35,497 bases of DNA from Komagataeibacter sp. FXV3 (lineage in GTDB: Bacteria > Pseudomonadota > Alphaproteobacteria > Acetobacterales > Acetobacteraceae), in assembly GCF_015155755.1 (NCBI RefSeq), contig NZ_VWPI01000062.1, positions 1-35,497 on the forward strand. Reading direction: 5' to 3'. Below are positions 20,094 through 31,602 of the stretch, piece by piece; the stretch's first letter is position 1; the number at the start of each line of letters is the position of its first letter. A model generated the notes under the pieces. The model was not told the DNA's origin. It searched no databases and was given only the letters and a program-made list of their open reading frames with translations. Position numbers and translations under genes: made by a program.

Positions 20094-20145
20094 ATTCACC
20101 CGTCCCTATAATCCAACGCGCATCCGGCCTGAAAAAAATACGAGG

Positions 20146-20222
20146 AAGTTCCTGGTGAAGCTTTTTTCAAAAAGCTTCGTCAGAACCTTGCTTTTTTGAA
20201 AAAAGACGACACCCAAAAACTT
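20146..20222 (+). repeat. multi-hairpin intergenic element, copy A
   Basis: A 77-bp element between two convergent genes. The outer ends AAGTTCCTGGTG and CACCCAAAAACTT are imperfect inverted repeats. Inside are a 10-bp perfect stem (20157-20166 with 20169-20178, GAAGCTTTTT) and a second stem CTTTTTT/AAAAAAG (20191-20205). The reverse complement of 30686-30760 aligns with it from end to end, so it is a dispersed element rather than a simple terminator, although it could terminate both flanking genes. Confidence 0.8.
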
Positions 20223-20234
20223 TTAGTTCCCATA

Positions 20235-21338
20235 TCACCCCGACTGTCCTGCACCATGGCTGCCCCGTTGGCCATGGTGCAGGATATCGGCTGAAATGCT
20301 GCGGGCGTAACCAGCCGAATCAAGGCTGTCGGGAAAGATGCCCAGCAGCTTGAGTTCATCCACATACCGCGCGACCTGTATTTTCAGGTCATTGCCCACG
20401 GGGCTGACACCCAGCACTTCGTGGCGCATCATCTGCAAAATCGTGTCCTGATCCATGCCGTCCATCCGGCCATCAAGCAGGGCCGCGGCTTCCGCCATAT
20501 GTCCGGGCAGCCAGTGGGCAGCATGCGACAGCGCCAGCACAAGGGCCACGGCGGCACCCGGCGTCTGCGCCAGCAGGTCCGTCGAGACACCCAGCGCAAG
20601 ATTCGTGCGTTCCGCGTACAACCCCTTCACGCTATTGACCAGTTCCACCAGATCCAGCGCCCGGTTGTTCAGCAGCTGCCACGCCAGCGGGTCATGCAGG
20701 GCCACGGCGTCCACCGTGCCCGCCGCCAGGGCGTCATCAATCTGGTCGGGCGGCAGGATCACCCAGTCGGGCGCTGTATCCGGGTTCAGTCCTTTGCGGC
20801 GCAGGATGACGGAAAAGAACAGGCGGTCCGCCATATCCGCATTCAGCACCGCGATCCTGCGGCCCACCAGATCCTCGATCTTGGCAATCCGCAGCCGCTT
20901 GCGCACCAGCAGGCGAAATGTCCCCGCCTGCAATCCCATGACCAGCCGCGCGGGCAGGTCCGCATCCGCCTGATACGCCTGCAGCCACGACAGCACGGGG
21001 GCCACGGCCGCCATGCTGCGCCCCGCCCGCAGGTCGGCAATGGCGTCCCGCCCCGTTACAGCGCCGGAACGCAGGTGCACATCCAGCCGGTACTGGGAAA
21101 AGAAGTCCTGCCGCAGCGCCACATTGTACAGCGTCGATGCCTGGGCAAACGGCCATGACAGCGTCAGGTCATGCGCTTCGCCATCCAGCAGCGCATCATC
21201 ATGCCGTACGATACGGGCCTGCTGGCGGCTTTGCAGCCACTGCGCACCCACCACGGCACAACCTGCCCCAACCAGCAGCGGCATGACCGCACGCCGCAGC
21301 AGGCGTGGCGGCCGCCCTTCCCTGTTTTCATCGACCAT
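20235..21338 (-). CDS. orphan periplasmic-binding-type protein (SsuA/NrtA-like)
   Basis: A substrate-binding fold of the nitrate/sulfonate/thiamine-precursor type, 367 aa from the ATG at 21338 (a GTG at 21362 is possible). An N-terminal basic stretch RPPRLLRR precedes a hydrophobic segment (AVMPLLVGAGCAVVGAQW) that may be an uncleaved membrane anchor or a signal. Typical segments are DLRAGRSMAAVAPVLSWL, then IEDLVGRRIAVLNADMADRLFF, and DQIDDALAAGTVDAVALHDP, the last being the 'binding pocket to hinge' part of SsuA-like proteins. No permease or ATPase gene is near it. Ligand unknown; it might serve a transporter encoded elsewhere or a sensory role. Confidence 0.72.
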   Translation of the reverse strand: MVDENREGRPPRLLRRAVMPLLVGAGCAVVGAQWLQSRQQARIVRHDDALLDGEAHDLTLSWPFAQASTLYNVALRQDFFSQYRLDVHLRSGAVTGRDAIADLRAGRSMAAVAPVLSWLQAYQADADLPARLVMGLQAGTFRLLVRKRLRIAKIEDLVGRRIAVLNADMADRLFFSVILRRKGLNPDTAPDWVILPPDQIDDALAAGTVDAVALHDPLAWQLLNNRALDLVELVNSVKGLYAERTNLALGVSTDLLAQTPGAAVALVLALSHAAHWLPGHMAEAAALLDGRMDGMDQDTILQMMRHEVLGVSPVGNDLKIQVARYVDELKLLGIFPDSLDSAGYARSISADILHHGQRGSHGAGQSG

Positions 21339-21404
21339 TGGTGGGCATTTCTCCTGCAACACAAAGGCATTACCGTGCTTTCAGCCGGTCCGGTTTTCCA
21401 TTTT

Positions 21405-21449
21405 CCCCCTTTTTGAAAAAAAGTTCAAAAGGGGGGTTTACGCCCCCCC
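21405..21449. repeat. G/C-tract inverted repeats between the binding-protein gene and tRNA-Asn
   Basis: Two overlapping dyads are visible: CCCCCTTTTTGAA (21405-21417) against TTCAAAAGGGGG (21424-21435), with one bulged T, and GGGGGG (21431-21436) against CCCCCC (21443-21448). They are mutually exclusive foldings sharing the G run. The style (poly-T stem) recalls the intergenic elements elsewhere in the window, but the sequence is not the same. Confidence 0.6.
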
Positions 21450-21466
21450 ACCAGTGTGGCTATAAG
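21437..21466 (+). promoter_or_regulatory. candidate tRNA-Asn promoter
   Basis: TTTACG (21437-21442) and TATAAG (21461-21466) are separated by 18 bp, and the tRNA 5' end lies 14 bp after the -10 box, a sensible distance for a stable RNA promoter. The -35 matches 4 of 6 and the -10 matches 5 of 6 consensus bases. Confidence 0.45.
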
Positions 21467-21480
21467 CTGCTCAACGCTGA

Positions 21481-21556
21481 TCCCGAATAGCTCAGTTGGT
21501 AGAGCAAGCGACTGTTAATCGCTGGGTCGTAGGTTCGAGTCCTACTTCGGGAGCCA
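21481..21556 (+). tRNA. tRNA-Asn (anticodon GTT)
   Basis: A full 76-nt cloverleaf can be folded by eye. The acceptor stem is TCCCGAA with TTCGGGA, and the D-arm is GCTC...GAGC. The anticodon arm GCGAC-TGTTAAT-CGC has anticodon GTT. The T-arm contains GGTTCGAGTCC. Discriminator G is followed by an encoded CCA (21554-21556). Confidence 0.96.
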
Positions 21557-21559
21557 TCT

Positions 21560-21900
21560 TTCCTTAAAAATTAGTGTTAAATCAGCAAGGCTGGATTTCC
21601 TTAATCCGACTGTCTGTTCCATGCCATGGTAGACACGGTCATCGGACAGATGCAGCCGCACTTCAGGCGGTTGGTGATGTTATCCGCCGATATTCCCTAT
21701 TCTTTAAATAAATGCGTCCGATCCTGCTTCTGGGCCGGAATAATCAGTCCAGTACCAGCATACCCATTGCGCGGCCATGGAATTGTCGAAAGCCCTGCAG
21801 TGGAAGCGACAACTGGCGTCCACCGCATTGCAATGCAGTCTGACATACTGCCCTGTTTCAGAACATGTGAAAATTTTACCATGTGTGCGGAAACATCCAC
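21560..21900 (-). pseudogene. decayed LysR-family regulator
   Basis: Pieces of a LysR-type regulator can be read on the minus strand in more than one frame. The start resembles the LysR helix-turn-helix (HVLKQGSMSDCIAMRWTPVVAS, compare the usual GSFSAAARAL..TPSAVS). Further on, GTGLIIPAQ..DRTHLFKE stands where the effector domain begins, and after a stop and frame change EVRLHLSDDRVYHG and GLRKSSLADL match the next effector-domain segments (usual form VRLELSLSDRVVDL). The linker between HTH and effector domain and all of the C-terminal half are missing. The relic runs up to the 3' end of tRNA-Asn. This is a by-eye profile match, not a search result. Confidence 0.5.
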
Positions 21901-21981
21901 CCCGCCAGCAATGACGGCAGAATATGAAAACCCGGCCGAGACATCACATCAGGGCCGGGTCAGGTCAGGTCGGATCAGGGA

Positions 21982-22938
21982 TTACAGGCCAAGCGTACGC
22001 TTCAGCCCTGCGCAGTAGGCATCCATGAACCGGCGCGACAGTTCCGCATCCGGCACGAACATGTCGAACACATGGTATGCGCCCGGCACGACCATGACCT
22101 CGGTCGGGATACCTGCGGCCATCAGGCGGCGGGCATAGTCCAGATCCTCGCACAGAAACAGGTCCATCGACCCCACCCCGATAAAGGTGGGCGGCAGGCC
22201 GGACAGGTCCTTCGCCCGCGCGGCAGATGCATAGGCCGGCGTGTCATCGCCCCCTGCCTTCGCCCCCAGATACGCTTCCCATGCATATTTGTTGGCCGAA
22301 CGGGTCCAGACATATTCACCAAAATCGGGCGCGGGATCGACCTTGGTCGCCGTACGGTCATCCAGCATGGGATAGATCAGCAGCTGGTAGGCAAGCCTGT
22401 ATTCCTTGCGGTCGCGCGCCATCAGCGCCAGGGCCGCACTCAGCCCACCACCCGCACTTTCACCTGCCACGGCCACCTTGTCGCGATTGATGCCCAGTCC
22501 GGCTGCGTTGTCATGTACCCATTTCAGGACGGCGTAACAGTCCTCGATCGCGCCGGGATATTTGACCTCTGGCGCCAGCCGGTAATCGACAGAGACAATG
22601 ACAAACCCCATCTTGCTGGCCAGCACCTGGCATTTCGGGTCGTCCACTTCCGGATGTCCCGAAACCAGTCCACCGCCATGGATATAGACAATGGCCGGGG
22701 CATTGGGCCGCCGCACGCGGGGGCGATAGATCAGGACACGCACGTCAGGCGCACCGGCGGGACCGGGAACATATTCTTCCTGCGTTTCCACATCCGGCAG
22801 GGGACGCCCTTCGATCAGCCGCACCGACGTCATGAATATCTCACGCACTTCCGGCAGCGACCGTCCGGACAGGCCATCAAATGACGGCATTTTTTCCAGA
22901 ATCGGCAGGAATTCGGGATTTACGACATTTTTGGGCAT
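21982..22938 (-). CDS. alpha/beta hydrolase, HSL-family esterase/lipase
   Basis: A serine carboxylester hydrolase of the hormone-sensitive-lipase family (family IV), 318 aa. The oxyanion-hole motif HGGG begins at His87. The nucleophile elbow GESAGGG has Ser161. The late acid and base are probably the Asp in SMDLFLCEDLD and the His in GAYHVFD. There is no signal peptide, so it is probably cytoplasmic. I chose the ATG at 22938; AGAGGA is 11 nt upstream, while a TTG at 22959 would lie inside that site. The gene is followed by a decayed LysR gene and preceded by an AT-rich gap. The natural substrate cannot be read. Confidence 0.88.
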   Translation of the reverse strand: MPKNVVNPEFLPILEKMPSFDGLSGRSLPEVREIFMTSVRLIEGRPLPDVETQEEYVPGPAGAPDVRVLIYRPRVRRPNAPAIVYIHGGGLVSGHPEVDDPKCQVLASKMGFVIVSVDYRLAPEVKYPGAIEDCYAVLKWVHDNAAGLGINRDKVAVAGESAGGGLSAALALMARDRKEYRLAYQLLIYPMLDDRTATKVDPAPDFGEYVWTRSANKYAWEAYLGAKAGGDDTPAYASAARAKDLSGLPPTFIGVGSMDLFLCEDLDYARRLMAAGIPTEVMVVPGAYHVFDMFVPDAELSRRFMDAYCAGLKRTLGL

Positions 22939-23470
22939 GGTGAAGCAGGTCCTCTTCAATCAGAAGCCGCCCATGGGGGCGCCTTCGCTGCCTGTAACCG
23001 TCACGCACACAAGCGTGATCAACCATGACCGACATCAAATAATTTTCTCTATATATGCATATAAAATATAAAATTATGGGTTTTTCTTATCTGTTATATT
23101 TGGAAATCAATTCATTTCATCAATTTATATATTGTATTTTCCATTCGAATATAAAATATACTTCGCATGCCGTAATGAAATCATCGCACGCCATGCCATG
23201 ATGCCAGCAAGGTGATGCATCCGGCCTGCCGCGCCATCAAACCGCCAGACCATACCGGCGTTTCCATATACTTGCGCTGTATCGTGGCGGGCTTCCGGCC
23301 GTCGCGACAAGAACTGTTGCCTTTTTACAGGCATAGTCAGGCACGGAATGACAAAACAGGATTGCCCTGACCAGCAGGGCATATATTTCCGGACATTAAG
23401 AAAAATAAAAGTTCCAATTTTAATTTTTTACATATAACCTATTCATATTATATATGGGAAAGGTTTGAGA
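22939..23470. other. intergenic gap, strongly AT-rich in part
   Basis: A 532-bp gap between the divergent esterase and antiporter genes. Bases 23035-23160 and 23395-23460 are far richer in A and T than the rest of the window and contain small palindromes such as TATATGCATATA (23052-23063) and ATTCGAAT (23143-23150). The middle (23160-23390) has ordinary composition; its only open frame has no convincing ribosome site or similarity. It probably holds promoters for both genes. Confidence 0.6.
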
Positions 23471-24688
23471 TTGTCGAACACTACGGCGCTTGTTCTTGAT
23501 GCTGCCCTGTTTGTTATTTTCCCATGGGCGGCATGGCGACTGGCACATAGGGCAATTCCGATTGTTGTCCTGCCAATCCTGCTCGGGATCGTGCTGGCGG
23601 TCATGCATGCGCCGGTGCATGAAATCGGCATCCCATCCGTTTATGGTGACAATATCGGCTGGCTGGCCGTGCTGGTGCTGGCCTTTACCGCCGGGCTGGA
23701 AATGTGGCAGCCCCCCGATGCCAATGCATCAGCCCATACCATTCCCCCGCCCCCTCTGGGTCGCCTGCTGGGTGGTGCGCTGGTGGCGCTGGGGGGACCG
23801 TTCGTCATCGGCTCCTTTCTGGTCTATTATTTTTTCCTGCCCCTGCATGGATGGCATCCGCCGCATGTCGGCCGGCTGATCGGGTCACTGGCCATCGGTC
23901 TGTGCATTGCGGTCAGCGCCCTGCCGGTGCTGATCGGCATCGTGCGTGAACTGCCACCGCTGCAGCGATCGATCGGGCAGCTTGCACTCAAGCTGGCGGT
24001 GGTGGATGACGCGGCGCTGTGGATCGGGCTGGTCATCCTGCAGTTCGCGGCCCGCGGGCCTGCGGCGCTGCATGGCTGGACCGGACTGGAGGGGGTGGCG
24101 GTTGTCCTGCTTGTAGCCCTGGCCATCATCAGCAACTGGGCGACACGCAACATGCCCAACCCGCCCCAGCTGGTGATCTGGGCGGCGGTGCCGGTCTATC
24201 TGGCGGCAGGATCATGGGCCAGCATGCATCTGGGCCTGCATGAACTGATCGGGGCGTATTTTGCCGGTGCGCTCATGCCGCCACGCTGGGTCGTGCGCCT
24301 GCCGGTGGAACAGGTCGGGCGGTTTTCCCTGATCTGGCTGGCGCCGATGTTCTTTGGCCATAGCGGGCTGCATATCAATGGTGATGCGCTGACGTGGCCC
24401 TCGGTCCTCGCGTCGCTGATGCTGGTGGTCATTTCGGTGCTGGCCAAGATGGGATCGGTCTATGCCTTTCCGCCCGCGCCCGGACTGACGCGGCGGCAGG
24501 CACTGGGGGTGGGCGCCCTGCTGCAATGCAAGGGACTGATGGAAATCGTGGCCGCAACCATCCTGCATGCGCAGGGCATGCTGTCGGATTTCGCCTTTGC
24601 GTCCCTCATGGTGCTGGCAGTCATTTCAACCGCGCTGACCGGCCCGTTGTTCCGGCTGTTTGCCCCACGCATCCGTCATGGCGCGTGA
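23471..24688 (+). CDS. cation/proton antiporter (CPA2, NapA/KefB-like)
   Basis: An inner-membrane protein of 405 aa with about twelve hydrophobic segments and the Na+/H+ exchanger fold. The ion-binding aspartate pair Asp179-Asp180 occurs in LKLAVVDDAALW, as in NapA-type CPA2 antiporters. Other family-like segments are WLAVLVLAFTAGLEM and HLGLHELIGAYFAGALMP. There is no C-terminal TrkA-N domain, so KefB-type gating is absent. No ATG occurs near the front; the start is TTG at 23471, 7 nt after GGAAAGG, or TTG at 23465. Very AT-rich DNA precedes it. It probably exchanges Na+ or K+ for H+; the ion is not determined. Confidence 0.85.
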   Translation: MSNTTALVLDAALFVIFPWAAWRLAHRAIPIVVLPILLGIVLAVMHAPVHEIGIPSVYGDNIGWLAVLVLAFTAGLEMWQPPDANASAHTIPPPPLGRLLGGALVALGGPFVIGSFLVYYFFLPLHGWHPPHVGRLIGSLAIGLCIAVSALPVLIGIVRELPPLQRSIGQLALKLAVVDDAALWIGLVILQFAARGPAALHGWTGLEGVAVVLLVALAIISNWATRNMPNPPQLVIWAAVPVYLAAGSWASMHLGLHELIGAYFAGALMPPRWVVRLPVEQVGRFSLIWLAPMFFGHSGLHINGDALTWPSVLASLMLVVISVLAKMGSVYAFPPAPGLTRRQALGVGALLQCKGLMEIVAATILHAQGMLSDFAFASLMVLAVISTALTGPLFRLFAPRIRHGA

Positions 24689-24856
24689 CTGTAATAATAA
24701 AGACACCCTTCCGGGCACTGCTCCATAGCCTTTCAGACAGTCCCCAAGGGACCGGATCGGGCGGGCATCCAGGTAAAGCAGGCCATATGACCATAACCCG
24801 CAACCTCCGTGCAAGAGATGAATACAAGGATTACAGGGTATTGTCCGGGATGCGGT

Positions 24857-25201
24857 TCAGCATAACTGCGTCATTACGCCCTCCCGGACATTCAAAAAAA
24901 ACGACCTGAATATTGTCAGCGCCAGATGAAAATTCCTGGTTAGCATTCTGGAATCATACAGATCTTCCAGAACAGGGATCATTTCGGGCTTTATCGTGCC
25001 GGAATATACTGTCCTGACATCGCAATCGTCATTTTCTTCGTACCCAGGCGTCAGCAGGCATATTTCCCGTTCGCGTCTCAACTGCAGACTGGATGACGTA
25101 TCCACATCATCCAGACCGACCATGCCGTCATATCTGCAGGCCGTGTTCAGAAGGTCCAGCAGGTCACCCGGCGAAGGGCGAAGGGGCTGCTGATTTCCCA
25201 T
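24857..25201 (-). CDS. small unknown protein
   Basis: 114 residues of no family I recognise. The N-terminal part is acidic (SPGDLLDLLNTACRYDGMVGLDDVDTSSS), followed by REREICLLTPGYEENDDCDVRTVYSG and a more hydrophobic C-terminal half (NFHLALTIFRSFFLNV). No signal peptide or membrane segment is evident. Support for a real gene is an excellent purine-rich ribosome site, GGGGGAGGG, 6 nt before the ATG, and location 53 bp after the MFS gene on the same strand, so the two could be co-transcribed. GC content is lower than in that gene. It could be strain-specific. Confidence 0.5.
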   Translation of the reverse strand: MGNQQPLRPSPGDLLDLLNTACRYDGMVGLDDVDTSSSLQLRREREICLLTPGYEENDDCDVRTVYSGTIKPEMIPVLEDLYDSRMLTRNFHLALTIFRSFFLNVREGVMTQLC

Positions 25202-25254
25202 GGCAGCCCTCCCCCTTTCCCTGCCAATACAGGATCATCGTCTTTTATCCCCGG

Positions 25255-26502
25255 TCATTCCGGCGTAATGTCATCCAGTCGGTCAAGACGCCACAGCCCG
25301 GGAAACATCCGTATCCACGCGATGGTAATGGCCAGCGTGCCGATCCCGCCCAGGGCGACCGAGCCAACCGGCCCGATCAGGCTGGCCACCATCCCGCTTT
25401 CGAATTCGCCCAACTGGTTGGATGACCCGATGAACAGCATGTTCACCGCCGAAACCCGCCCGCGCATGCTGTCGGGCGTGCGCAACTGCACCAGCGCGCC
25501 GCGCACCACCACGCTGACCACATCGGCCGCCCCCAGCACCGCCAGCGCGATGATGGATACCGCCATGGAACGCGACAGGGCAAAGACCACCGTCGCCACG
25601 CCAAAGATCGCCACGGACAGGAACATGCGTGCCCCCGCCCGGCGGTTGAGGGGCCGCCACACCAGTATGACGGAACACATCACCGCCCCGATCGCCGGCG
25701 CGGCCCGCAACAGCCCCAGCCCCAGCGGCCCGGCATGCAGGATATCACTGGCGAAAACCGGCAGCATGGCGGTCGCTCCCCCCAGCAGCACGGCGAACAG
25801 GTCCAGCGAGATCGCGCCCAGCATATCGGGCCGGGCGCGCATGAAGTGCGCGACCTCCACAAACGTGGCCAGCGAAAGCGGCACCCGTGGCCGGGGTGTG
25901 TAGACCAGGCGGATACATAACGTACCAACACACGCACAGGCGAAGCCAATGGCGCAGACAAGGTAGCACACCCCTGCCCCCGCGCCGTACAGCAGCCCGC
26001 CCACCGACGGCCCCGTCACCGCCGCCGCCTGAAACAGCGAGGACGACACCGCCGCGGCACGTGGAAACACATGCACGGGCACGAGCGACGGCAGGAAAGT
26101 CTGCTGGCATGGCATTTCGAACGCGCGGGCGGCGCCGAACACCATGACCATGGCATAGATCATCCACGGCGTGGTCCACCCGCCCAGTGCGCCGATGGCC
26201 ATAAGCAGGGCGGACAGGGCCTCGATACACTGGCACGTCACCACGATCATGCGACGGTCGAGGTGGTCCGCCGCATGCCCCGCCGGCAGCAGAAGTCCCG
26301 CCATGGGCAGGAACTGCGCCAGCCCCACCAGTGCCAGCGCCGTCGTGCTGTGGGTCAGGGCATAGATCTGCCACCCCACCGCGACGGCCTGCACGCAGGC
26401 GGAAAAGGACGAAGCCGTACGGGCGGCAAGGAACGCGGGCAGTCCGGGGTGACGGTGCAGGGGCACGGCGACCGGGGGCGGTGGAACGGGAGCGGAAGAC
26501 AT
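25255..26502 (-). CDS. MFS transporter (MFS_3/EntS-like exporter)
   Basis: Major facilitator with 415 residues and about twelve hydrophobic segments. The N-terminal half starts with HPGLPAFLAARTASSFSACVQAVAVGWQIYALTHST, which is typical of the MFS_3 group that includes the enterobactin exporter EntS. The first cytoplasmic loop has AGHAADHLDRRMIVV, a variant of the MFS motif GxxxDRxxRR. GVSAVNMLFIGSSNQLGEFESG near residue 340 is also characteristic of this group. The proline-rich first 15 residues are cytoplasmic. The substrate is unknown; export of a small metabolite or siderophore is the family-based guess. Confidence 0.85.
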   Translation of the reverse strand: MSSAPVPPPPVAVPLHRHPGLPAFLAARTASSFSACVQAVAVGWQIYALTHSTTALALVGLAQFLPMAGLLLPAGHAADHLDRRMIVVTCQCIEALSALLMAIGALGGWTTPWMIYAMVMVFGAARAFEMPCQQTFLPSLVPVHVFPRAAAVSSSLFQAAAVTGPSVGGLLYGAGAGVCYLVCAIGFACACVGTLCIRLVYTPRPRVPLSLATFVEVAHFMRARPDMLGAISLDLFAVLLGGATAMLPVFASDILHAGPLGLGLLRAAPAIGAVMCSVILVWRPLNRRAGARMFLSVAIFGVATVVFALSRSMAVSIIALAVLGAADVVSVVVRGALVQLRTPDSMRGRVSAVNMLFIGSSNQLGEFESGMVASLIGPVGSVALGGIGTLAITIAWIRMFPGLWRLDRLDDITPE

Positions 26503-26608
26503 GATGCCGTCACCCTAACAGCACCGCTGCGAAATATCCTACGTCCTGCCCCTAAAAATTACGTTCACCTGTTTGCAAATCGGCCCCGATACGGGCAAAA
26601 GCTGTTCC

Positions 26609-26980
26609 ATGACAGACCCTGTTGAGCATACAGCCGTGCCCGGCGCGGCGGGGGACGTACCGACCCGCGACTGGCTTGATATCCGGGCCGGGACGGTGGT
26701 GGATGCACACCCCGTGCGCGAAACGCCGCGGCACACCTTCCGGCTGACCATTGATTTCGGCCCCCATATCGGGATCCGGTCATCGGTGGTGCAGGTCAAC
26801 CACCGCTATGTCCCGGCCCGGCTGGTTGGCCGCCAGATCTGCGCGGTGATCAATGTCCCGCCCCGGCAGGTCGGTTCCCTGCGCAGCGAGGTGCTGACAC
26901 TGGGCATGCCCGACAGTAATGGAGAGGCCGTCCTGATCCGACCCGATGGCCGTGTCCCCGATGGAGGAAAACTTTTCTGA
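26609..26980 (+). CDS. csaA: CsaA-like tRNA-binding domain protein
   Basis: Single-domain OB-fold protein of the CsaA / EMAP-II tRNA-binding family, 123 aa from the ATG at 26609. The chain closely follows the CsaA pattern: LDIRAGTVVDAHPV, then LTIDFGPHIGIRSS, NHRYVPARLVGRQICAVINVPPRQVG, SEVLTLGMP and a C-terminal GGKLF. An N-terminal tail of about 20 residues is extra. CsaA was first described as a chaperone-like protein and binds tRNA; its cellular role is unsettled. The stop overlaps the gpt start as TGATG, so the two form an operon. A TTG at 26573 in the same frame is a weaker start. Confidence 0.87.
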   Translation: MTDPVEHTAVPGAAGDVPTRDWLDIRAGTVVDAHPVRETPRHTFRLTIDFGPHIGIRSSVVQVNHRYVPARLVGRQICAVINVPPRQVGSLRSEVLTLGMPDSNGEAVLIRPDGRVPDGGKLF

Positions 26981-27462
26981 TGGCTACAAGCTACGCAACC
27001 GTAACATGGGACCAGCTGCACCGCGATGCCCGCCAACTGGCCAGCACGCTGATGACCCGTGGCCCCTTCAGGGGAATCGTGGCCATCACGCGCGGCGGCA
27101 TGATCCCCGCCGCGATCATCGCCCGTGAACTGGACTGCCGCCTGATCGACACCATTTCCGTCGTGACCTATGACGAGGAAAAGATGGGCGAACCCTCCGT
27201 CGTCAAGAATGCCGACGCCGCGGGCGATGGCGAGGGCTTCCTGATCATTGACGACCTGGTGGATTCGGGGGTCACGGCGCAGCTTGTGCGCAAGATGCTG
27301 CCCAAGGCAGTGTTCGCCTGCCTGTACGCCAAGCCCGCCGGCCGCCCGATCACGGATATTTTCGTAGTCGAGGTCCCGCAGGACACATGGGTACTGTTCC
27401 CGTGGGATACGGCGCCGCTGTTCATTCCGCCGCTGGCCAGCAAATCGGTCGAAAAGGCCTGA
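26980..27462 (+). CDS. gpt: xanthine phosphoribosyltransferase
   Basis: Purine salvage enzyme converting xanthine, and usually guanine, with PRPP to the nucleotide. The 160 residues match the enterobacterial Gpt size. Recognisable parts are GIVAITRGGMIPAAIIAREL, SYD-like VVTYDEEKMGE, the PRPP-binding loop FLIIDDLVDSGVTA beginning at about residue 87, and a C-terminal VPQDTWVLFPWD that is diagnostic of Gpt. It is translated after csaA by a one-base overlap and is followed by an intrinsic terminator. With a BMP nucleoside-type importer in the same window, purine salvage is represented twice, but the loci are 10 kb apart. Confidence 0.93.
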   Translation: MATSYATVTWDQLHRDARQLASTLMTRGPFRGIVAITRGGMIPAAIIARELDCRLIDTISVVTYDEEKMGEPSVVKNADAAGDGEGFLIIDDLVDSGVTAQLVRKMLPKAVFACLYAKPAGRPITDIFVVEVPQDTWVLFPWDTAPLFIPPLASKSVEKA

Positions 27463-27500
27463 TCGGGGCACTTTCTGCCCATCACACGCCTTGTTGTTCG

Positions 27501-27553
27501 CCGCGCCCGTCCACACTGCTTGCCGCAGGGACGATGGGCGCGGTATTTTTTTT
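27501..27553 (+). terminator. intrinsic terminator of csaA-gpt
   Basis: Stem CCGCGCCC (27501-27508) pairs with GGGCGCGG (27536-27543), and GTCC pairs with GGAC inside it after a small bulge. Eight T residues (27546-27553) follow. This is a textbook rho-independent signal 38 bp after the gpt stop. Confidence 0.85.
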
Positions 27554-27565
27554 GCAAGAATGTGC

Positions 27566-27594
27566 TTGCCAGAACAGCAGTTGCCACATAGGTT
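27566..27594 (+). promoter_or_regulatory. weak candidate tRNA-Pro promoter
   Basis: TTGCCA (27566-27571) and TAGGTT (27589-27594) are spaced by 17 bp, and the tRNA starts 14 bp after the second box. The -35 is good (5 of 6), the -10 poor (3 of 6). Confidence 0.3.
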
Positions 27595-27608
27595 CCCGCT
27601 CGTGGTCG

Positions 27609-27685
27609 CGGGGCGTGGCGCAGCCTGGTAGCGCGCGTGTTTTGGGTACACGAGGCCCCCGGTTCGAGTCCGGGCGCCCCGACCA
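27609..27685 (+). tRNA. tRNA-Pro (anticodon TGG)
   Basis: A 77-nt cloverleaf. The acceptor stem is CGGGGCG with CGCCCCG. The anticodon arm CGTGT-TTTGGGT-ACACG has anticodon TGG. The T-arm contains GGTTCGAGTCC. Discriminator A and an encoded CCA (27683-27685) follow. The NDUFS4-like gene begins 22 bp later. Confidence 0.96.
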
Positions 27686-27707
27686 TATCCAGGGAGTACG
27701 GATCGTA

Positions 27708-28013
27708 ATGCGAGCCCGGATTTACAGGCAGTCAAAACCCTCTACCCAGTCAGGTCAGGCCGGAACCCATACATGGGTACTGGATTACGGGCAGAACCGC
27801 CCCCGTCATATCGATACCCTGATGGGCTGGACCGGCAGCGCCGATACCCCGTCGCAACTGCGCCTGCAGTTTCCCGATCAGGACAGCGCCGTAGCCTATG
27901 CCACGCGCGAAGGGATCGCCTTCGATATCGAAATCCCCACCCCGCGCATTCGTCGCCCCAAGGCCTATGCGGATAATTTCCGTTATGACCGGATCCAGAA
28001 CTGGACGCACTAG
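27708..28013 (+). CDS. complex I accessory subunit, NDUFS4-like (ETC_C1_NDUFS4)
   Basis: A 101-residue homologue of the mitochondrial complex I 18-kDa subunit, found in alphaproteobacteria. It starts MRARIYRQSKPSTQSGQAGTHTWVL and contains LMGWTGSADTPSQLRLQF, the usual 'GWTSS.D...Q..L.F' core, then ATREGIAFDIEIP and the basic end RRPKAYADNFRYDRIQNWTH, which closely resembles the family C-terminus. It binds at the peripheral arm of NADH:quinone oxidoreductase in organisms where this was studied. The ATG at 27708 has AGGGAG 12 nt upstream. It lies between two tRNA genes and may share a transcript with tRNA-Pro. Confidence 0.9.
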   Translation: MRARIYRQSKPSTQSGQAGTHTWVLDYGQNRPRHIDTLMGWTGSADTPSQLRLQFPDQDSAVAYATREGIAFDIEIPTPRIRRPKAYADNFRYDRIQNWTH

Positions 28014-28040
28014 ACCTGATCTGGCACAAGTGCAGGCCAC

Positions 28041-28117
28041 GCGCCCTTAGCTCAGTTGGATAGAGCAACAGCCTTCTAAGCTGTGGGTCGCTGGTTCGAA
28101 TCCAGCAGGGCGCGCCA
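28041..28117 (+). tRNA. tRNA-Arg (anticodon TCT)
   Basis: A 77-nt cloverleaf. The acceptor stem is GCGCCCT with AGGGCGC. The anticodon arm ACAGC-CTTCTAA-GCTGT has anticodon TCT. The T-arm contains GGTTCGAATCC. Discriminator G and an encoded CCA (28115-28117) follow. Its 3' half is repeated at 29610-29643, so it is a likely integration target. Confidence 0.97.
28078..28111 (+). repeat. direct repeat in tRNA-Arg 3' half (attL-like)
   Basis: 34 bases running from the anticodon 3' stem through the T-arm into the acceptor stem recur at 29610-29643 with a single mismatch (the first 26 are identical). This is the part of a tRNA gene that tyrosine integrases of islands and phages normally use as attachment core, with the intact tRNA kept on one side. 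Confidence 0.75.
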
Positions 28118-28387
28118 CTTTTCAATGACTTAGCGGCTTTCATTTTTGCATCTTTTGCAGATATTTTGCAGTGCACTATGGCTCATTGCGGTTTCGCCCT
28201 ACCCCGGACGGCCCCGCGTAGCAGCGATGGAGACCACCTTGCTGGTCTCCCGCTCCTGATGCTGTTCCCACAATTGCATGCCCGCAATCGCGACCTCAGT
28301 GCGACGCGGCAAGTATGTGTCGATGATCCGTTGGCAATAATCGATCCCGTGGCCACTGATTGAGGCGATACACTTCAAGGCACATAG

Positions 28388-28850
28388 GACAATAGCGTCC
28401 CTGCTCAAAAAGGGGCTTTTCCCCACCATATCGGACGTACAAAAGACGGACTGAACTCAAAGCTGCATGCCGTGTGTGATGGTCAGGATCGGCCTGTCCG
28501 CCTGTATCTGACTGCTGGACAGGTCAGTGACTTCAAAGGGGCAGATGGTTCTTCTGGCAGACCTGCCGGAAGGAACAGAAGAGATCATCGGGGATCGGAG
28601 TTATGACAGCAACCGCATCAGACGATCTCTTGTCGAACGGAACACTACCGCCTGCATTCCACCGGTGAAGAACCGGAAATCAAAGCCATCGTGCAACTGG
28701 CACCTGTATAAAAAGCGCCACCTTATCGAAAACATGTTTGCAAAGCTGAAAGGCTGGCGACGTATTGCGACCCGATACGACCGGTGTGTTCATACGTTCA
28801 TGTCCGCAATCCAGATCGCAGCAAGCTTCCTCTTCTACATCAAGAAATGA
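28388..28850 (+). pseudogene. IS5-family transposase relic
   Basis: The C-terminal half of an IS5/IS427-type DDE transposase. One frame gives HHIGRTKDGLNSKLHAVCDG and RLYLTAGQVSDFKGAD. After an apparent one-base insertion (extra G near 28546) the next frame continues LLADLPEGTEEIIGDRSYD, with the catalytic Asp, and RHLIENMFAKLKGWRRIATRYDR, with the catalytic Glu. The N-terminal half, including the first Asp, is missing, and no terminal inverted repeats are visible, so it cannot be active. Some IS427 elements do use frameshifting, but at a slippery run, not here. It lies inside the tRNA-Arg-flanked segment. Confidence 0.85.
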
Positions 28851-28859
28851 ATCCTGAGC

Positions 28860-29567
28860 TTAGGATGCTTCCGCTTCAAACGCCTGAAGGAAGCCTTCGA
28901 TATCATCATTCATTAACAGCGGCAGGCGTTCCCTTACGATTTCATCAGGCCACTCCCACCACGCTACTGCCAGCAGGCGTTCAATCGTCTTCTCGGGGAA
29001 GCGGTATTTGAGAATTCGTGCGGGATTGCCACCGACGATGGCATAAGGTGGCACGTCCTTTGTCACGACGGACCCCGTGGCAATGATTGCGCCGGATCCA
29101 ATGGTCACGCCGGACATGACGTTGGCCCGAGCGCCGATCCATACATCGCTTCCGATGACGATATCTCCCTTCGTGGAGTGATCATCTGTCGCATCAGTCG
29201 CCTCGGGCCAGAAACTGGACAGGGCCTTAAAAGGATAAGTGGTAATCGTGTCGGGACGGTGATTGCCGAGAATCATGAGCACCTCACGCGCAATCGAACA
29301 GTATTTCCCGATTTTAAGGGTCGCATGTTCGGCTTCTATAACAATTGGAGATCCGGATGCACCATATGTATGTTCCCCGATCTCCCAGCCCCATTGTTCG
29401 ATTTCGCAGGCATGGGTGTAGCGGAGAAGCAGTGAGAAAACCTTCTTGCCCTGGTGCATAAACAGCGTCCTTCCTTTTCCACGTTTGGCCAGAATCCTCT
29501 TTTCATTGATAAATGCAAACGCCTCGCCCCGCACAAACGGATCGAGACGCATGCAGACAGCACACAT
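28860..29567 (-). CDS. CatB-related O-acetyltransferase (left-handed beta-helix)
   Basis: A hexapeptide-repeat acetyltransferase of the xenobiotic/CatB-VatD group, 235 aa. I chose the ATG at 29567 because AAGGA stands 9 nt upstream; a TTG at 29588 would be earlier. The N-terminal 50 residues are unusual. The core carries [22 protein letters not shown] with the catalytic His, and [46 protein letters not shown], the classical beta-helix ending. It uses acetyl-CoA; the acceptor could be a drug, a sugar or a cell-surface glycan. Lower GC than the core genes and placement between tRNA-Arg repeats point to horizontal gain. Confidence 0.85.
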
Positions 29568-29609
29568 GCAAAATATTCCTTTTTTCAAAAGGAAATACTG
29601 ATGCCTGCC

Positions 29610-29643
29610 AAGCTGTGGGTCGCTGGTTCGAATCCCGCAGGGC
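29610..29643 (+). repeat. truncated tRNA-Arg copy (attR-like)
   Basis: A second copy of the tRNA-Arg 3' half: 26 identical bases, one mismatch (C for A), then 7 identical bases. The acceptor stem and CCA are not restored after it (GGCCTGTGG follows), and there is no 5' half, so it is not a functional tRNA. It marks the far end of a segment of about 1.5 kb joined to tRNA-Arg. Confidence 0.8.
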
Positions 29644-29670
29644 CTGTGGTTTTATATATCCCGATGCAGC

Positions 29671-29713
29671 AGTCTTCCCCGAAGCTTTTTGAAAACAGCT
29701 TCACCAGAAACTT
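29671..29713 (-). repeat. multi-hairpin intergenic element, half copy C
   Basis: GAAGCTTTTT (29681-29690) and AAACAGCTTC (29693-29702) form the same stem as in copies A and B with one mismatch, followed by ACCAGAAACTT, the outer end. The short GTCTTC stretch before the stem matches copy B at 30722-30727. The other half (GCCGTCTTT stem and CACCCAAAAACTT end) is absent. Confidence 0.65.
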
Positions 29714-30065
29714 ATTCTGGATTTGCAGAATGTTTTATGGGCTGTCCTGAAAACACCCCCCGGCAAATGACACCTGCGTTTTTGACATGGTACGCAGCAG
29801 CATCCGGCCAGCAACCCGTCAGGCGGGGATGCGTTGCATATTCATGGTCACGGATGCGATCTGGGCAGATTATGGAAAGTTTCCATTAATACTGGTCACG
29901 ACAGATCGTTCGGATGATCGTTTATTTTTCCATCATGCCGGAATCCCATCCATATCGATCATTTCATTAATGAATACACAAACAATTCAACCATAAAATA
30001 CTGCCCATGAATGCAGTTCTTTATTCAAGACAGTGAAATGACATTGATCACATGACAGGAAGACC

Positions 30066-30632
30066 ATGAAAAAAACGATCCTGTGCCTGGGCATTCTGGC
30101 TGTTGCGGGATGCGCCAGCAGACCGGCCGAAATCAATGCGCAATATGTGAACCCGGAACCTTACATGCGGCAGAACTGCGCACAGCTTGCCCAACTGGAT
30201 GAGACGGACACCCAGGCCCTTGCCTCGGCCGATACGGGGCATATGGCGCGCACCCGATATATTCAGCCAAGCCAGTTGAAGGGTGAACTGGAAGCCGTCC
30301 ATACGGCCGAGCGCGGCAGGAACTGCGTGGGGCGCTATAACGCAACGGATTATGACAGCACTGGCGCGGTCTATCCCGACAGGATACTGCCCGACCGTCC
30401 TGCCCCGGCGGTAACGACCATGCCTGCCCGCGGCCATATCCAGGGCGGCATCAATCCGGGCACGGGCACGGGCAACATTACGGCGCATTCCTCTGTCGCC
30501 GAACAGAAACTGTCCAACCCGACCTATGTCGCACCGAACACCCACCCCTCCAGCTATCCAGCGCCCAGCATGCCGGTACCGGCGGCGGGCTATACGACGT
30601 CACCGTCCTATACCGCCAGCCCGTTCCAGTAA
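30066..30632 (+). CDS. small outer-envelope lipoprotein of unknown function
   Basis: A predicted lipoprotein of 188 aa. The signal peptide KKTILCLGILAVAGC gives the lipobox AVAGC with lipidated Cys16. The residue after Cys is Ala, so transport to the outer membrane is expected. The mature start AEINAQYVNPEPYMRQNCAQLAQL resembles small lipoproteins in proteobacteria that have 'YVSP..Y....C.QL', followed by an alpha-helical stretch. The C-terminal third is low-complexity, rich in Pro, Thr, Ser and Tyr (ends YTASPFQ). AGGAAG stands 5 nt before the ATG. Element B is just downstream and may end the transcript. The role is unknown. Confidence 0.8.
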   Translation: MKKTILCLGILAVAGCASRPAEINAQYVNPEPYMRQNCAQLAQLDETDTQALASADTGHMARTRYIQPSQLKGELEAVHTAERGRNCVGRYNATDYDSTGAVYPDRILPDRPAPAVTTMPARGHIQGGINPGTGTGNITAHSSVAEQKLSNPTYVAPNTHPSSYPAPSMPVPAAGYTTSPSYTASPFQ

Positions 30633-30685
30633 CCTGGCCTAAGACCCGTTTTCCAGATTCCACCAACAGGCTGATAAATAAATGG

Positions 30686-30760
30686 AAGTTTTTGGGTGCC
30701 GTCTTTTTTTTAAAGACGGCGGTCTTCGAAGCTTTTTGAAAAAAGCTTCACCAAAAACTT
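30686..30760 (-). repeat. multi-hairpin intergenic element, copy B
   Basis: A 75-bp element in reverse orientation to copy A. The outer ends are AAGTTTTTGGGTG (30686-30698) and CACCAAAAACTT (30749-30760), an imperfect inverted repeat. The inner stems are GCCGTCTTT (30698-30706) with AAAGACGGC (30712-30720), and GAAGCTTTTT (30728-30737) with AAAAAGCTTC (30740-30749). It lies between the convergent lipoprotein and SDR genes, the same kind of position as copy A. Confidence 0.8.
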
Positions 30761-30813
30761 CTTTATGATTTACGCGACAGCCACCACAATCGGGATAGAA
30801 AAGGCTACAGCCC

Positions 30814-31602
30814 TCAGATGGTGCTGAGCACCCCGCCATCGACACGCACCGACGCCCCGGTGGTGGCGGAAGCCTGTGGCGATGACAGATAGACCACCAT
30901 ATTCGCCACTTCCTCCACCGTTGCCGCACGGCGGATGATGGATGAAGGGCGGTGCGCCATGACGAATTCCGCCGCCACTTCTTCCAACGGCTTGCCTGTT
31001 TTTTCCTGTTCGGGCCTGAGCATGTCCGCCAGACCTTCGGATAGTGTGGGTCCCGGCAGCACGGAATTCACCGTAACCCCCGTTCCCGCCATCCGTTCCG
31101 CCAGACCGCGCGCCACCGAAAGCTGCGCTGTCTTGCTGAAACCGTAGTGGATCATCTCGACCGGGATATTCAGCGCGGATTCCGAAGATACGAAAACAAC
31201 CCGCCCCCAGTTCCGCTCCTTCATGCCCGGCAGGTAAGCACGCGACAGGCGCACGCCGGACATGACGTTGACCTCAAAAAAACGGCTCCAGTCCTCATCC
31301 GGCGTATCGAAAAAATCCTTTGGTTCAAAAATCCCCAGGTTATTGATCAGGATATCGCAGGAGGGATAGGCCGCCACCAGCGCCGCACACCCCGCTGCCG
31401 TGCCCAGGTCGCCGGTAAAGCCTTCCGCCTTTCCCGCTCCAAGGGCGGACAGGTCGCGCACCGCCCGGTCCACCGCAGGTGACTTGCGCCCGTTCACCAC
31501 CACCCGCGCCCCGCTGGTGACCAGTCCCTTTGCAATGGCCATCCCGATGCCGCCGGTTGATCCCGTTACAATGGCTGTGCGGCCTGTCAGGTCAATGTGC
31601 AT
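30814..31602 (-). CDS. SDR-family oxidoreductase
   Basis: A classical short-chain dehydrogenase of 262 aa. The NAD(P)-binding motif is TGSTGGIG (residues 13-20), the structural NNLG is in ILINNLGIF, and the catalytic pair is Tyr153 and Lys157 in YGFSK, preceded by SESALN, which provides the catalytic Ser. VNGRKS after the second strand, with Arg, suggests NADP preference. The ribosome site AGGAGGTG 7 nt before the ATG is the strongest in this window. It is transcribed divergently from the aldehyde dehydrogenase, with a 422-bp gap between them. The substrate is unknown. Confidence 0.9.
   Translation of the reverse strand: MHIDLTGRTAIVTGSTGGIGMAIAKGLVTSGARVVVNGRKSPAVDRAVRDLSALGAGKAEGFTGDLGTAAGCAALVAAYPSCDILINNLGIFEPKDFFDTPDEDWSRFFEVNVMSGVRLSRAYLPGMKERNWGRVVFVSSESALNIPVEMIHYGFSKTAQLSVARGLAERMAGTGVTVNSVLPGPTLSEGLADMLRPEQEKTGKPLEEVAAEFVMAHRPSSIIRRAATVEEVANMVVYLSSPQASATTGASVRVDGGVLSTI

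Follow-up and report, generated by a model that had tools for sequence, protein, structure and literature searches.

An abundant palindromic repeat behind the stop codons of Komagataeibacter genes, with the ends of an IS5-like miniature transposable element

Small repeated palindromes in bacterial genomes have been explained in more than one way. Miniature inverted-repeat transposable elements (MITEs) of IS5-type transposons (IS, insertion sequence) are short, have inverted ends and 3-bp direct repeats of the TNA type, and occur in many copies, on plasmids too. Repetitive extragenic palindromic (REP) sequences and their composites, the bacterial interspersed mosaic elements (BIMEs) and the REP doublets forming hairpins (REPINs), are likewise numerous intergenic palindromes set in inverted hairpin pairs, and the passages of PMC3733652 and PMC1525189 that deal with them describe a preference for convergent gaps and a role as IS targets. 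Known REP-targeting insertion sequences are IS1397, IS621, ISPpu9 and ISNm1106, and a passage of PMC1525189 includes the IS5 family among them. A further idea, put forward in PMC8355165 for clusters in 13 genomes generally, is that a group of short, closely spaced hairpins downstream of a stop codon acts as a terminator. The repeat examined here has something in common with each of these. It was noticed in a stretch of 35,497 nucleotides from Komagataeibacter sp. FXV3 (contig NZ_VWPI01000062.1), which we call the window and which holds two full copies in opposite orientation, A on the minus strand and B on the plus strand, as well as a half copy, C. These three copies were proposed in a sequence-only reading of the window, and both covariance-model matches and the sequence agree with it. 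The repeat family is a real, abundant MITE with IS5-like features, a statement that rests on its ends and its target repeats. It seems fairly likely to us that a non-autonomous DNA transposon has the repeat as its core, and that this core was kept as a 3'-end element after the ends decayed. Open-licence papers yielded no description of such a repeat for Komagataeibacter or Gluconacetobacter.

The common core is 77 nucleotides long and consists of an outer stem (AAGTTTTTGG / CCAAAAACTT) enclosing two hairpins. When 57 copies from the own genome are aligned the core is conserved, with little similarity outside it; the consensus outer stem is A-T-rich, with CUUUUAUU beyond it at one end and CUUCUUUAU at the other. 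A minority of copies have longer common flanks that end in GACTGTTTGAAAA, and from these the full form can be read: a 3-bp target repeat, inverted ends, arms some 20 to 45 bp long, and the core, roughly 162 bp in all (160-163 bp in the clearest examples). The inverted ends measure 15 bp, GAGACTGTTTGAAAA. Requiring both ends with at most 3 mismatches gives 21 end pairs, a set that includes two pairs sharing one left end, one pair from Gluconacetobacter liquefaciens and a few probable chance pairs. An exact 3-bp direct repeat (TTA, TAA, TCA or ATA) flanks 12 of the 21; shuffling the right-hand triplets produces 3.3 on average, and 12 was reached in 0 of 20,000 shuffles. The 13-base end motif GACTGTTTGAAAA, allowed one mismatch, has 67 matches in the own genome and its backwards control has 2. 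The sequence-only reading had suggested a REP- or MITE-like element, and the MITE part of that suggestion is borne out by the 162-bp form, its inverted ends and its direct repeats.

The repeat is far more widespread than the finding in the window suggested. BLAST of copy B against its own genome gave at least 81 matches among the best 40 of 284 candidates; the best 40 of these matches cover nearly the full length, whereas the others are pieces of the same palindromes. A covariance model, R1, was built from 31 copies, and in the own genome all 150 scored candidates (from 1616 first-look candidates) match over the whole model, which makes at least 150 copies. Twenty stretches of the own genome and the window, 433,440 bases together, contain 102 R1 matches at E up to 0.1. 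These were merged by hand into 52 places, many of which, the element being a palindrome, had been hit on both strands; scaling 52 places to 3.61 Mb gives about 430. All 19 Komagataeibacter genomes searched have R1 matches, from 53 to at least 150 each, and among 80 named loci (1,482,965 bases) R1 is found in 10 of the 13 from Komagataeibacter. Seven plasmid records match as well, six of them from Komagataeibacter.

Most of these copies lack the ends. Among the 52 own places both ends are present in 4, one end in 8 and none in 40, and among the 38 better own copies a recognisable left arm is seen in 10 and a right arm in 5 (control: 0 of 300 stretches behind stop codons). This is where the family departs from the described MITEs of IS5-type transposons, since most own places hold an end-less, conserved three-way core near stop codons. 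Two collapsed copies also exist (L100:3147-3200 and L096:11539-11592); in these, hairpin 1 keeps its first half and hairpin 2 its second, and the two halves are fused into one hairpin on the outer stem.

The copies in the window and their parts are as follows.

20141..20226, minus strand: copy A, full core with hairpin 1 decayed (R1 match of 82.0 bits; alignment)
20146..20155, minus strand: copy A outer stem, right arm in element orientation (AAGTTCCTGG on the plus strand; sequence, alignment)
20157..20178, minus strand: copy A hairpin 2, GAAGCTTTTT type, intact (0 mismatches)
20187..20210, minus strand: copy A hairpin 1, stem base broken (sequence, alignment)
20213..20222, minus strand: copy A outer stem, left arm in element orientation (CCAAAAACTT on the plus strand; sequence)
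29671..29713, plus strand: copy C, half copy with hairpin 2 and right foot only (hairpin at 29681-29702, 1 mismatch)
30682..30765, plus strand: copy B, full core (R1 match of 98.6 bits; best fold -37.9 kcal/mol, z -7.3)
30686..30695, plus strand: copy B outer stem, left arm AAGTTTTTGG (sequence)
30698..30720, plus strand: copy B hairpin 1, GCCGTC..GACGGC (sequence, fold)
30728..30749, plus strand: copy B hairpin 2, GAAGCTTTTTGAAAAAAGCTTC (0 mismatches)
30751..30760, plus strand: copy B outer stem, right arm CCAAAAACTT (sequence)

The nearly invariant GAAGCTTTTT hairpin pattern, allowed up to 3 mismatches, is matched 3 times in the window and never in 100 shuffled versions. The claim that the other hairpin differs in sequence between A and B while its pairing is kept was mistaken. 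The alignment shows that this hairpin has decayed in A, where GTCGTC...GCAAGG stands for the consensus GCCGCC...GGCGGC, so that the G+C stem base is lost and only the T/A part pairs. The predicted folds differ as well: copy A, which folds worse than B (z -2.7 versus -7.3), gives one long hairpin, and copy B gives the three-way form, an outer stem with two hairpins. Both full copies lie between convergent genes, as had been said of them, A between a TonB-receptor gene (ends 20093, plus strand) and an NMT1-like gene (20235-21338, minus strand), B between a small gene (30066-30632, plus strand) and an SDR gene (30814-31602, minus strand). Copy C lies in a gap between divergent genes, and K. europaeus likewise carries a half copy at that site. 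Beside it, at 29606-29650, the window resembles by eye the 3' end of a tRNA gene (GGTTCGAATCCCGCAGGG), possibly an old integration scar. No known RNA family coincides with the repeats: the three tRNAs and two sub-threshold matches that Rfam gives for the window at E up to 1 all lie elsewhere. For one window protein the 13 best relatives are all from Komagataeibacter, with K. europaeus LMG 18890 the closest, which agrees with the host suggested in the sequence-only reading.

If the repeat were, at least outside Komagataeibacter, a REP or BIME of the RAYT kind, it would be a single-strand hairpin element mobilised by a Y1 tyrosine transposase. Hairpin half units in inverted pairs are in keeping with that, and so is the insertion of an IS into the element, which a passage of PMC1525189 records for REPs. 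Across 25 genomes, Y1 matches occur in 5 of the 18 that are R1-positive; these five (G019, G062, G076, G096 and G110) all carry R1 weakly, and none of the 7 R1-negative genomes has a Y1 match. At 2 of the 6 loci around Y1 genes (L092 of G096 and L091 of G110) a weak match to R2, a model of the other-genera copies, lies within about 1 kb (best E 3e-4). The 13 remaining R1-positive genomes have no Y1 match; they are the own genome (G000), G060, G073, G020, G119, G111, G055 and six others, and they include the Komagataeibacter genomes searched, G000 and G060. The Komagataeibacter full form also has inverted ends with 3-bp direct repeats, and single-strand transposition is not known to leave these. 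Its core is a joined 77 nucleotides and not a unit of 20-40 bp. By eye neither the GTAG nor the CGTC tag is in the 31-copy consensus, but some copies do have CGTC in the linker. CGTC REPs are reported missing in Acetobacteraceae in a passage of PMC3733652. A REP-like origin is disfavoured for the Komagataeibacter element and may apply to the other genera, though we consider the reading as a whole very improbable; the REP half of the sequence-only reading finds no support there.

Sites compared between species show presence and absence of the element. At site B, where the window has the core, K. europaeus has no element, K. swingsii carries the full-length form complete with its two ends, and in K. 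oboediens there is a copy in opposite orientation; at site A K. intermedius has none. At site 43 of the own genome four genomes carry the element, the own copy being of the collapsed form, and in two relatives the facing stop codons are directly adjacent with no element between them. An exact empty-site search with the 21 full forms gave 3 spanning hits, of which 1 is plausible (K. nataicola versus K. xylinus, with the left flank diverged). A conjugative plasmid of Novacetimonas hansenii carries the full form at 95.7% identity over 163 bp, with TAA on both sides. This plasmid copy (NZ_CP094849.1:86646-86808) is directly behind an annotated IS630-family transposase gene.

Two segments from other Komagataeibacter genomes are bounded by GTGACTGTTTGAAAAGTC, with TGA and TTA direct repeats by eye, and have IS5-type transposase genes (DUF4096, DDE_Tnp_1).

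G130:C2:66000-72000 (L325): segment of 3.6 kb, IS5-type transposase and other genes
G060:C1:1467500-1472500 (L326): segment of 2.7 kb, IS5-type transposase and bacterial PH-domain protein

They resemble the full form over about the first 18 bases (about GWGACTGTTTGAAAAGTC) and in their TNA repeats, but not over the rest. They are possibly cargo-carrying relatives and mobilisers of the element, and because the likeness is confined to those bases we treat the link as a lead. An IS5-type reading frame beside one full-form end (L138) was also considered as the mobiliser; it proved to be part of another IS, which ends in GGGGTCTGTTGGGAATT and had inserted into the full form.

The position of the element relative to genes was determined with a simple script of our own as the sole source of gene calls. 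In the own genome the element occupies 36 of 65 convergent gaps, 12 of 245 tandem gaps and 3 of 62 divergent gaps. Stretches of seven relatives give 38 of 120, 33 of 459 and 2 of 114. The nearest facing stop codon is a median of 12 nucleotides away in the own places (n=52) and 10 in the relatives (n=78), a stop codon lies within 50 nucleotides at 42 of the 52 and 67 of the 78, and no midpoint (0/52 and 0/78) is more than 30 nucleotides inside a called gene.

Such a pile-up behind stop codons could also come from a purely selfish MITE. It would insert at T/A-rich TNA sites, its insertions into genes and promoters would be purged, the host would gain nothing, and the fold would be needed for transposition or be a mere by-product of the palindrome. 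A selfish MITE tolerated behind stop codons is a serious rival, though on balance we find it unlikely. It explains the ends, the target repeats and the copy number as they stand, REPs show a similar convergent or unidirectional bias (in a passage of PMC3733652), and it sits well with wobble pairs that show no strand preference and with other terminators that are not scarcer beside the element. It sits less well with the end-less copies, 40 of the 52 own places, which should not move in the same way and yet have a core more alike than its flanks, or with two-sided stem changes above shuffles. The gap counts also argue against it. Among own gaps of at least 80 nucleotides 36 of 48 convergent ones are occupied versus 12 of 105 tandem ones, even though the tandem gaps have 2.7 times as many bases to offer. 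The length cut involves some circularity, because the element itself lengthens a gap, and the uncut counts are those given above.

The IS that ends in GGGGTCTGTTGGGAATT is about 820 bp long, has a two-frame IS5-type transposase (DUF4096, DDE_Tnp_1), and lands in or beside the element in 31 of the 52 IS copies examined, counted where the 91 bases upstream of the IS start score above 8 bits (loci L310, L318, L321, L324 and L332-L371). These 52 copies were hand-picked from a longer list, and one duplicate locus and L313, L319 and L320 (no IS start found) were excluded. The same threshold is passed by 67 of 4000 random windows and by 446 of 1881 windows ending in TTTTT, so a taste for T-runs accounts for part of the preference but not all of it. 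The usual junction is the T-rich hairpin loop. As with the REP-targeting insertion sequences in a passage of PMC1525189, an IS5-type IS is found in palindromic repeats more often than in control windows. The host and the repeat are others, the junction is in a T-rich loop, and two further IS copies stand by eye behind plain terminators (L342, L353).

Similar units occur outside the genus. R1 matches 27 of 120 genomes sampled from the family Acetobacteraceae, the own genome included, and the weaker matches viewed have the same feet (AAAAGTTTTTTG / CAAAAAACTTTT) and the same two-hairpin plan with different hairpin sequences; several are half units only. These units may be homologous to the Komagataeibacter element or may have converged on it; R2 does match the own copies, with up to 64 bits. 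Among 67 acetic acid loci from outside Komagataeibacter (Acetobacter, Gluconobacter and Asaia included) there is 1 borderline R1 match, in Gluconacetobacter entanii (E 0.0014). R2 matched only the own genome among 385 Alphaproteobacteria (12 candidates scored per genome, E up to 1e-5, few family members), a search that weak matches may escape. It could be argued from the shared layout that the Acetobacteraceae have long had the core as a native 3'-end structure, to which transposon ends were added later in Komagataeibacter, and that most core-only copies never had ends. The common feet with their varying hairpins, the lack of GAGACTG ends in the flanks shown of the other-genera copies, the 27 matching genomes and the missing left arm in 28 of 38 own copies all speak for this idea. 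The patchy distribution in the family, with that one borderline match among the 67 loci, does not, and position is less clear in two genomes of other genera, where full and half units in gaps of at least 80 nucleotides occupy 6 of 25 convergent, 6 of 90 tandem and 3 of 32 divergent gaps, a weak convergent bias. Half units in these genera stand single or in feet-inside pairs around a short palindrome, the usual layout reversed (L179, L180, L182 and L188 in G055; L169 in G020), as if they were themselves mobile. We believe a native origin of this kind is improbable.

Copies at the same site in other species indicate how the core changes with time. There are 20 such comparisons, few and not independent since they come from 10 sites, and 19 are in the same orientation. 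In these 19 the mean core identity is 0.872, a value biased upward because the compared copies all score above 60 bits, versus 0.669 for the neighbouring 30 nucleotides, with flanking genes at 91.2%; different-site copies within the own genome have a core identity of 0.838. Hand-averaged by species distance, core identity is 0.874 for close species (12 pairs) and 0.869 for distant ones (6 pairs), with no fall. A core that varies within bounds while its flanks dissolve is what would be expected under selection on the core, but the argument is weakened by the cut-off, the small sample and the shared sites.

The stems can be judged separately by their paired changes. In an alignment of 79 Komagataeibacter copies, fitted to the structure, there are 18 two-sided changes versus 7.3 after shuffling, in 10 pairs versus 4.8, and 0 of 500 shuffles reached this. 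In 24 other-genera copies there are 33 two-sided cells versus 11.3 (0 of 500 shuffles), with a covariation score of 0.191 versus 0.101 and every slid version lower; these shuffles do not preserve relatedness, and copies within one genome are related. An arm-swap test was dropped, as the hairpins had been selected by their own pairing, and a fixed-register test was used instead together with the two-sided count. Of 24 distinct stretches read in a fixed register, 19 can pair at the first position behind the foot, versus 9.6 after shuffling (G-C 11, C-G 5, T-A 2, T-G 1), and 7 of the other 9 pairs are little or nothing above shuffling.

We can now set out how the core of a transposon may have come to stand behind so many genes. 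An IS5-family DDE transposase would move the full form in trans. Its TNA target resembles the stop codons TAA and TGA and their complements, so insertion beside a stop, chiefly where two stops face each other, could spare both genes. After insertion the ends would decay and the core would be retained, perhaps because a folded transcript with a U-rich stretch on either side terminates or shields the mRNAs of the two converging genes. Old copies would hence persist as core-only 3'-end elements. Judged from the sequences, the core would most likely serve as a bidirectional terminator or 3'-end shield, at about even odds. The larger idea is possible but more doubtful: transposition would have spread a structured 3'-end RNA element, a mobile terminator working in both directions, until it became standard punctuation between convergent genes throughout the genus. 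Its fold would be kept more than its sequence across the genera of the family, and another IS would use it as a place to land safely. It would differ from the clustered-hairpin terminators proposed in PMC8355165 in that one repeated, conserved and mobile sequence provides the cluster.

Several observations weigh against this account and must be set beside it. No IS was found that is exactly the mobiliser; the IS5-type segments match the full form in about 18 end bases only. With the arms mostly gone (10 of 38 left, 5 of 38 right), descent from the full form by decay would have to be assumed for the remainder. Genes are not always spared, since 2 of the 7 plasmid records have a match beneath an annotated gene, and at least one other-genera place (L183:16310) is inside a called gene. 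Many convergent gaps do without the element, 29 of 65 in the own genome and 82 of 120 in the relatives. The sequence-only reading had offered reuse as a bidirectional terminator. The gene-end positions fit, but in a crude scan other classical terminators are as rare in own gaps with the element (7 of 36) as in those without it (2 of 19), and the relatives give 8 of 38 and 13 of 56, so these data do not show the element replacing terminators. The first 31 copies have 4 two-sided changes versus 2.5 shuffled, a count reached by 111 of 500 shuffles. A repeat with few copies and no compensatory changes is nevertheless not what was found: there are at least 150 copies, and two-sided changes exceed the shuffles in the larger sets, though not in those first 31. 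Pairing specific to the RNA strand was looked for in the wobble pairs and is unsupported, as there is no strand preference overall (83 G.U versus 85 A.C) and the sense strand of tandem gaps gives 44 versus 29 (p 0.10). Use of both strands would give such symmetry, and so would folding of DNA rather than RNA.

If the account of a mobile terminator is true, a transposon family provides the 3' ends for a large share of the convergent genes in Komagataeibacter, the makers of bacterial cellulose, and mobile DNA would be delivering ready-made terminators to its hosts. It would also account for the landing preference of one IS in these genomes, and the copies would be natural bidirectional terminator parts for engineering.

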